This document shows, in pieces, positions 58,631 through 63,312 of a stretch of DNA of 63,312 nucleotides. Both the position numbers and the translations under genes were made by a program. The notes under the pieces were generated by a model. The model was not told the DNA's origin. It made no database searches and was given only the letters and a program-made list of their open reading frames with translations. Positions within the stretch are counted from its first letter, which is position 1. Each line of letters begins with the position of its first letter. The stretch spans positions 1 to 63,312 of the forward strand of contig DAHXNO010000177.1 in NCBI GenBank assembly GCA_027365345.1. The letters are read 5' to 3'. The DNA comes from Granulicella sp. GTDB taxonomy: Bacteria; Acidobacteriota; Terriglobia; Terriglobales; Acidobacteriaceae.

Positions 58631-59222
58631 TCTGGATTTTTACCAGAGTAGGGATCGACATGAGGCTGGCGAGGTATTGTCTGTCAGCACCCCCGTCCGA
58701 GTTCATGCCGTCCGCTATGGACGGATGTTGAACTGAGAAGGTGCGGGTCTGGTAGAGCGGTCCACTGGCGGATCCCATTGGGGGGGGGGAGTTACGGGCT
58801 GGCTGATTTTGCCGCCTCCGATGCGTCCGTGATCTTGCATGGATTGAGCGAACGGATTGGACGGCGGAATCCTGCTGTGCAACTGAGGCGAAGGCCGACA
58901 ACCTTTGCGAGGGAGTGGATGCCTGGCGCCCGATGAGTCGCTCGATGGAAGCGTTATTCCGCTCACTCGATTCGCAAGCTCAGCACAAAGCATCCAGCGA
59001 TACCGTGGGGGAGAATTCCAAGGGGCGAGGGTTGACGCTCGTCTGGCCGGTGACGTCGGCTCTAGGCCTGCCAGCCGCTGGAGCCAGCAAGAGCCACCTC
59101 TATTGAGGCCAGGAGCAAAACAGCCGTAGCCGCCGTGACAACGATCACAGCAAAACAGGTTTGCCGCTCTTAGGTTGTGGCTAGAGCACAGGAGTTCGAT
59201 GCATGGCAGAAGGAGGATGAAC
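58631..59222 (+). other. Intergenic region with G10 tract and Hsp20 promoter
   Basis: 590 bases without a supported gene. It contains a run of ten G at 58780-58789, and the CRP/FNR-type box and -10 for the Hsp20 gene near the right end. Confidence 0.45.
59134..59149. promoter_or_regulatory. CRP/FNR-type box before Hsp20
   Basis: CGTGACAACGATCACA. TAGGTT at 59171-59176 begins 29.5 bases from its centre, predicting a transcript start near 59183 with the box at about -41.5. Confidence 0.75.
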
Positions 59223-61105: not shown

Positions 61106-61557
61106 TCAAAACAGGCGCTTCAGCCCACGGTCCACGGCCCGTTCCATGATGCCGCGCATCTCCTCCCAACTCAAACGCAACCGATTCGCTACGGCCTGTC
61201 GGCTGGCCGGCTTGAGCAAAGCAATCGCCAGCTCTTCAAGCAGCTCTGTAAACCGGCTTTCCGCCTCGGCCCAGGGCAGACAGACCACGCTCACTCCAGG
61301 TTGAGAGCGCTCGCTGCGTGGCGACTTGGCGTGAAGAATCGTGCGGTACTGGCAGGTGTCAAGATGGGGCCAGCACCGCTCCGCCTGCTGATCGTACCGT
61401 CGGCAAGGTGTGCCGTATTCGGCGTAAGGCCACTGCCGGCCATCAGCGTGTGCAAGGCGAATATGCACTGCGCCAAATTCCAGCCGCAACTCAACGGCTC
61501 AATTGGCCAAGGGCTCTGGATGCCCAATATCGCCATGTACAACTCGTGATCCTGCAT
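61106..61557 (-). pseudogene. Truncated, frameshifted ISL3-type transposase
   Basis: The start MQDHELYMAILGIQSPWPIE lies in one frame, and the continuation ELRLEFGAVHIRLAHADGRQ is in another, requiring a one-base shift near 61510. Further on there are YDQQAERCWPHLDTCQYRTI, HAKSPRSERSQPGVSVVCLPWAE and RLRLSWEEMRGIMERAVDRG, the zinc-finger and first helix-turn-helix parts of ISL3 transposases. It stops at 61106 with the catalytic DDE half absent. A dead insertion sequence between the nitroreductase and cytochrome genes. Confidence 0.7.
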
Positions 61558-62003: not shown

Positions 62004-62119
62004 CAAAAACAGTCAGGTGATGGCTGTTACAGGCGGTTGTCTCCAAGGTGTTCTATGCCCAGCGTGCCTGAAGGGAGATGTGAGGGGGCGCTGCAGGCTG
62101 GCGGAACCGCGATGGATGG
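62004..62119. repeat. Promoter-region repeat, copy A
   Basis: This 116-base segment aligns without gaps to 62171-62286 at an offset of 167 bases, with scattered substitutions. Shared elements include CAGGTGAT, GTTCTATGC, TGCCT and GCAGGCT. It contains the box GGTGATGGCTGTTACA (62016-62031) and TATGCC at 62054. Confidence 0.75.
62016..62031. promoter_or_regulatory. CRP/FNR-type box, distal copy
   Basis: GGTGATGGCTGTTACA, a degraded copy (one half-site TTACA) of the box at 62183. TATGCC starts 30.5 bases from its centre, so an upstream promoter is preserved. Confidence 0.55.
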
Positions 62120-62170: not shown

Positions 62171-62286
62171 AAAAATCAGACAGGTGATAGCGGTCACAGC
62201 CGGTCGTCTGTAAGACGTTCTATGCTCATCCTGCCTAAAGAAACTGCTGAGAGGCCGCCGCAGGCTAGTCGGACCACGATGGAATG
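62171..62286. repeat. Promoter-region repeat, copy B
   Basis: Gene-proximal copy of the repeat at 62004-62119; it ends 31 bases before the cytochrome start codon. Confidence 0.75.
62183..62198. promoter_or_regulatory. CRP/FNR-type box before the decaheme cytochrome
   Basis: GGTGATAGCGGTCACA. TATGCT at 62221-62226 begins 30.5 bases from its centre, putting the box near -42 relative to a start at about 62233. Confidence 0.78.
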
Positions 62287-62317
62287 AATTGCAACCTGGC
62301 CGCTTGGAGATCTGAAA

Positions 62318-63245
62318 ATGAGACGGATGTTTGTTTGTGTGGCATTGACCGCGTCGCTAACCGTAATGTGGGGGGATCACCCCGGTGCGGGCGGCGGCGA
62401 AAGATGGAAAGCAAGCCAGCGCAGTTGAGACAACGGGAACGGCCGCGAGTCCGGCAGACGGGTACGTCAGCAATGACACCTGCGCCCGCTGCCATGCGAA
62501 CATAGCCGGCCCCTTCGCCAACAACCCGCACTCCAAGCTGGCGCTCGAGCATGGTGGAAACGGCGTCACCTGCCAGAGCTGCCATGGGCCTGGCAAAGCG
62601 CATGTGGATGGCGGCGGGGATGTCACCAAGATCATCCGCTTTGAAAAGCTCACCCCGCAGCAGGTGGATGCCACCTGCCTGAAGTGCCATGCCACCACCC
62701 ATCCCAACTTCCTTCGTTCTCCCCACGCCAAGGCCAACGTAAGCTGCCTGAGTTGTCACAGCATTCACAAGTCTGTGCCGTACACCACCTTGTTGATCGC
62801 CGAGCAGCCGAACCTTTGCTACAAGTGCCACGTGGACGTCAAGCCGTCGTTTGATATGCCCTTCCATCACAGAGTGAATGAGGGGGTGGTGAAGTGCAGC
62901 GATTGCCACAACGTACACGGTACCTTCCTACCCGCCAATCTTCGCAACACGGCTGATCAGAACATGGTCTGCACCAAGTGCCACATGGATGTGCGCGGAC
63001 CGTTCGTCTACGAGCATGTGCCGGTCAGGGCAGATGGATGCCTTGCCTGCCACACGCCGCATGGCTCCCAGAATGCTCGGCTGCTGAACATGCCCAACAT
63101 CAATCAGTTGTGCAACCAGTGCCACAGCCCAGTTAGCGCGGGGACGGTTCATGGGATGAATGAGGGATCGTCAGAGGTGACGACCTGCATCGACTGCCAC
63201 ACGTACATTCACGGATCCAACCTGGACCAAGCTTTCTTGAAGTAA
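62318..63245 (+). CDS. DmsE/MtrA-type decaheme c-type cytochrome, frameshifted in the signal peptide
   Basis: Ten CXXCH motifs occur between 62480 and 63205 (CARCH, CQSCH, CLKCH, CLSCH, CYKCH, CSDCH, CTKCH, CLACH, CNQCH, CIDCH), and HHRVNEGVVKCSDCHNVHG and GPFVYEHVPVRADGCLACH are DmsE/MtrA-family hallmarks. Such periplasmic cytochromes pass electrons through an outer-membrane porin to external acceptors. The ATG at 62318 (GGAG upstream) encodes a signal peptide MRRMFVCVALTASLTVMWG, but the frame is lost at a run of six G (62370-62375). Deleting one G joins it to PVRAAAKDG, a normal AxA cleavage site. Either a sequencing error or a real or phase-variable shift. Confidence 0.85.
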
Positions 63246-63312
63246 GGAGCGGTCGGGGCTCGGCAGCATGATCCAGCGCTGGGCCCGCAACAGGAATCAA
63301 CGGTTTGGCCGC

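Follow-up and report, generated by a model that had tools for sequence, protein, structure and literature searches.

Decaheme cytochromes related to MtrA and DmsE have been recorded in Acidobacteria before. According to the available portion of one report, acidobacterial sequences (Solibacter, Terriglobus) occur among the MtrA/DmsE- and MtrC-type genes obtained from Arctic peat, and iron reduction by Acidobacteria in peat soils is proposed (PMC3669403); the available section of another mentions PioA and PioB homologues in Acidobacteria (PMC10654088). Because these two sources report such homologues, an acidobacterial MtrA-type cytochrome is not new. MtrA and porin-cytochrome clusters have also been summarized (PMC4245776), in a text that does not contain the terms Acidobacter, Terriglobus or Granulicella. 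The mto operon of a Gallionellaceae sp. from enrichment culture KS is described, in the excerpt at hand, as a decaheme-porin pair after which come two small cytochromes c of the periplasm and a cytochrome b561 protein of the inner membrane (PMC5566968). The gene analyzed here is an ordinary member of the known DmsE/MtrA family that carries a private frame break of undecided origin.

The window, that is the whole stretch of DNA under analysis, is one entire contig (C158, 63,312 bases) of the 4.195-Mb, 208-contig genome of a soil acidobacterium, and has Granulicella and other Acidobacteriaceae among its nearest named relatives. On its forward strand, a probable ribosome-binding site, GGAG, is read directly at 62306..62309 with an 8-nt spacer to the ATG at 62318, from which start codon and signal peptide run in one frame (62318..62374; MRRMFVCVALTASLTVMWG), as judged from the translation, its hydropathy and the homologous signals of relatives. 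A run of six G, likewise read directly at 62370..62375 of the same strand, is the point at which the reading frame breaks, and the decaheme cytochrome c domain of the DmsE/MtrA family (62385..63245, forward strand) follows as an open stretch of 286 amino acids with ten CXXCH motifs, recognized by its translation, a profile and a structure match; 67 bases (63246..63312, forward strand) separate its stop from the contig end. Read without a shift, the frame of the ATG contains 36 codons and then a stop at 62426; the heme frame opens at 62367 only, after a TAA, and from 62376 stays open through all ten CXXCH to the stop at 63245. Hydropathy over 13 residues peaks at 2.2 in the signal frame and at 0.17 in the heme frame before the first CXXCH. 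Translation confirms the coordinates and the layout of the original prediction, which had placed ribosome-binding site, ATG and signal peptide in one frame and the ten-heme domain in the other, and the six G stand exactly where it had put them, between the two frames. That both halves of one conserved gene flank this run in two different frames is beyond chance.

The heme domain scores 258.7 bits against TIGR03508 (NCBIfam, DmsE family decaheme c-type cytochrome), above the membership cutoff of 192.2, and all ten of the CXXCH motifs that define DmsE/MtrA decaheme cytochromes are present. Its residues 31-280 align to residues 65-325 of chain A of PDB 6r2q (E 3.8e-32, 115 bits, 250 residues), an entry which we take to be the MtrCAB complex with MtrA as its chain A (the table names the chain cystathionine beta-synthase). 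An export signal in frame with the heme domain, found in 39 of 39 relatives, is missing from the sequence as assembled, where the frames differ across the G run; this failure is a property of this sequence copy. Translation might begin within the heme frame itself, at the GTG at 62385, which is the sole start codon of that frame before the first CXXCH and is preceded by a G run resembling a purine-rich ribosome-binding site. The product would have no signal peptide and its ten CXXCH would remain empty; no hydrophobic segment follows the GTG (0.17), whereas all 39 relatives have one at the N-terminus. Attachment of c-type heme is periplasmic, and since a protein started at the GTG has no signal peptide this codon cannot replace the upstream start, a reading that we consider hardly credible. 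The original prediction had named a conserved alternative in-frame start downstream, with its own signal, as one observation that would speak against it, and such a start is indeed absent.

The relatives just mentioned derive from 44 homologue loci, reduced to 39 once duplicates were removed, in collections with a single genome for each species. In every one of them the heme domain shares its frame with a start and a hydrophobic segment, homologous signals being unbroken as in L042 (MKRLLLCVALVVGLAGLWNTGPVYA-AGK), and a qualifying ATG is present in 38, L015 having only GTG or TTG. The longest mononucleotide run between start and first heme motif is five bases or less in all 39, with the same maximum of five whether it is measured from the latest or from the earliest qualifying start, and the six-G run is absent from all ten relatives with signals similar enough to be aligned over this region. 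A search of the genome for a second copy of the break site retrieved only the site itself. As none of the relatives compared shows the frame break, it is private, within this set of genomes, to the assembled copy. A separate search of the genus found a match at E 1e-60 in 13 of 28 genomes (this one included), and five genomes of the genus (G004, G013, G020, G026 and G027) have two decaheme homologues each at E 1e-60 or better.

These comparisons bear on the proposal that the G run is either an assembly or sequencing error or an on/off switch, of which the first part is a slight favorite and the second is left without support. Phase-variation switches are usually located near the start of a gene, as in a signal peptide, and here a G run able to slip does sit inside the signal peptide near the start, from where slippage would toggle the cytochrome, and hence extracellular electron transfer, between cells. 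Against this, the tract is only six bases long, a run of at least six occurs in none of the 39 relatives and six G in none of the ten aligned signals, and G or C runs of at least six are common, at one per 6.5 kb of this genome, with 29 of them in frame inside genes. The comparison of orthologues that had been suggested as a check on the switch thus went against it, a conserved or recurrent tract being what such a switch calls for, and none of the open-licence papers retrieved appears to link cytochromes to homopolymer phase variation. With a short tract that is not conserved and has no counterpart in relatives, we regard a phase-variation switch as very improbable. A slimmer chance still attaches to the narrower idea that the six-G tract is a newly arisen, species-specific contingency switch, under which a population would show mixed tract lengths and a fraction of its cells would have the conduit turned off.

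The sequence as it stands could also yield the full protein by programmed ribosomal frameshifting or by transcriptional slippage at the G run, which lies exactly where the two frames meet and is overlapped by a possible short G/C hairpin, CCCC at 62380-62383 lying just 3' of the six G. However, the predicted fold is not exceptional (z -1.5, with 11 of 200 shuffled sequences equally stable), the relatives compared do without such a site and have not retained one, and six G are, to our knowledge, not a known efficient slippage signal, which leaves this reading extremely unlikely. Other features of the upstream region may be recorded here. Two direct repeats of 112 nt (62005-62116 and 62172-62283), 74% identical and 167 bases apart, lie just upstream of the cytochrome gene; no strong fold was found for the repeat, and it was rejected as a conserved element on finding no match better than E 0.8 in the relatives' loci compared. 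A riboswitch or other known RNA upstream was likewise rejected, since Rfam gave nothing at gathering score anywhere in the window and only chance-level matches near the gene. About 0.8 kb upstream of the cytochrome, on the reverse strand (61106-61489), lies a fragment of an ISL3-family transposase, 127 amino acids long against a 370-position profile and scoring 54 bits, below the cutoff of 180.

The frequency of homopolymers was evaluated in a sample of 319,312 bases, comprising this contig and 13 stretches (256 kb) of the same genome. It contains 114 runs of at least six. By the gene model, 65 of these are interior to genes whose frame is the same on either side, 24 are close to gene edges and 25 fall outside genes; one run of ten G (58780-58789) lies in sequence called noncoding, flanked by a radical SAM gene and a small heat-shock protein gene. 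Because 49 G or C runs of at least six occur in these 319 kb, the six-G run by itself is unremarkable in this genome. No interior frame break was accepted elsewhere in the sample by a frame-aware gene model combined with inspection, a procedure that is blind near gene starts. The model returned 14 same-strand frame switches, none with a run above four within 40 bases. Four of them were dropped as involving a piece of one or two bases; among the remaining ten, eight are ordinary overlapping neighbors, one is a 53-nt piece in a gene with its own frame open, and one (L086) appears, on reading the translations, to be two different proteins. In simulations using 110 of the 186 coding segments, the model recovered 76 of 110 shifts when they were interior but 0 of 110 when they lay 40-60 nt from a gene start, so that breaks like that at 62370-62375 would escape detection elsewhere. 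Genome-wide homopolymer noise is therefore not supported, no interior break having been accepted in 319 kb, and a platform failing often at homopolymers is unlikely, which weakens the error reading and does not remove it.

The conservation of the heme domain was then evaluated against 26 relatives, namely those left of 36 initial loci when nine at 34% identity or below (L058 and L060-L067) were not taken as orthologues and L056 was also left out. All ten CXXCH are retained, together with every one of the 23 histidine columns that are conserved in 95% or more of the 26 relatives. Rough dN/dS values, with dS above 1 in all cases, are 0.14 versus L032, 0.26 versus L033, 0.20 versus L036 and 0.19 versus L034, and two pairs among the relatives gave similarly rough values of 0.13 and 0.23, again with dS above 1. 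The window differs at 5 of 121 otherwise conserved columns, tied for the third most among 27 rows (above 23 of the 26 others and equal to one); it has no close relative in the set, and such an absence by itself raises the count of departures. Decay into a pseudogene was considered and is not supported, given the retained motifs and histidines and the low dN/dS, apart from those five departures.

These data can be reconciled with a third reading, outside the choice between error and switch, that is nearly as likely as error: replication slippage would recently have inserted a real extra base into the G run, leaving a null gene in the strain or population. We consider this a serious candidate, if one somewhat short of an even chance. 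The assembled sequence itself says so, the lack of other accepted homopolymer breaks in 319 kb argues against a noisy platform, the undecayed heme domain fits a recent event, and the five departures could be an early sign of relaxed constraint. With a comparable degree of reserve, the consequence would be that translation of the signal frame runs for only 36 codons, that the periplasm receives no heme protein and that the conduit stays off until reversion. On the other side, the presumed partner genes are open and the heme domain is constrained, so that the mutation would have to be very young.

The presumed partner genes are found at the end of another contig. Of 27 relatives, 25 have a large porin-like open frame directly after the cytochrome, and in the other two less than 1 kb of contig remains. 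In the present genome a porin-like gene starts some 40 bases from the end of contig C133 and is oriented as a continuation of the operon would require. It encodes the only homologue in this genome of the large protein seen in relatives, with 60% identity to the L032 protein over 866 columns. Further along C133, open frames encode two monoheme cytochromes, an 11-heme protein and a cytochrome b561-like protein, as well as a tetraheme protein, so called by motif count only, whose gene is cut by the contig end. Only 6 bases are common to the ends of C158 and C133; the gene order of relatives suggests that the two contigs are neighbors, and C133 is likely to hold the remainder of the cytochrome operon. 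At E 0.001 the porin-like proteins have no match in NCBIfam (two relatives) or in Pfam (two relatives and this genome's own), and the label of porin is a tentative one, taken from their location, their size and a C-terminus that is aromatic (HYEF in most). A different arrangement is seen on contig C79 of the same genome, where L097 (780-4061, forward strand) encodes a protein of 1093 amino acids in which a ten-CXXCH domain similar to that of the cytochrome precedes a stretch of about 780 residues, the last of them aromatic; open frames of this type, of 1071-1150 amino acids with 10 or 11 CXXCH, are present in six other genomes (L106-L111). To judge from its sequence, the C79 protein could be a decaheme cytochrome and an outer-membrane barrel in one chain; homology of its C-terminal part to the conduit porin was looked for and not detected.

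Taken together, there is about an even chance that the locus contains an ordinary functional decaheme gene, the first of an MtrAB-type outer-membrane conduit, that has been mis-stated by one base in the G run. In the living cell, signal peptide and heme domain would then form a single frame, the precursor would be exported and would acquire its ten c-type hemes once in the periplasm, and the mature decaheme protein would pair with the porin-like protein encoded next. The role of the cytochrome in a conduit, and its place as first gene of one in the outer membrane, are suggested by its family and neighbors, and we infer that the extra length is a consensus error rather than a real mutation. Error and very recent null mutation explain the break almost equally well, and our slight preference for error comes from the open partner genes and constrained heme domain that flank the break, and from its position near the contig end (937 bases away), where the overlap of 6 bases suggests thin coverage, not a repeat, at the ends of C158 and C133. 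Conversely, 937 bases exceeds the length of short reads, so that the nearby contig end may be without effect on the site; the assembly is generally not prone to homopolymer frame breaks; and the heme domain differs at 5 of 121 conserved columns.

As a caution, one base in one assembly may lead gene callers to miss a signal peptide or to call a conduit dead. The surroundings add an apparent MtrAB-type conduit operon to an acidobacterial genome, consistent with the proposal of iron reduction in the available portion of PMC3669403. A real switch, if true, would be an unusual case of phase-variable respiration, and nothing here requires one. With homopolymer phase-variable genes (contingency loci) the gene has in common a G run near its start and an out-of-frame state as assembled; it differs in that the tract is short and unconserved, and known here from one assembled sequence. 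It resembles the DmsE family in profile score, in its ten CXXCH and in the large porin-like frame that comes next in relatives, and departs from it in having, as assembled, the signal peptide in another frame, whereas relatives have one frame. The match to chain A of 6r2q and the pairing of a decaheme with a porin-like gene recall MtrA of MtrCAB/MtrAB; unlike in those systems, the porin-like proteins here are without a family match, and C133 adds an 11-heme protein and two monoheme cytochromes. The Gallionellaceae mto operon, as portrayed in the excerpt of PMC5566968 and compared by gene content alone, is matched by the two monoheme cytochromes and the cytochrome b561-like gene of C133; there, however, the b561 domain is fused to a diheme cytochrome, whereas the b561-like protein here is devoid of CXXCH and the 11-heme and tetraheme proteins are encoded, unlike in that operon, by separate genes.
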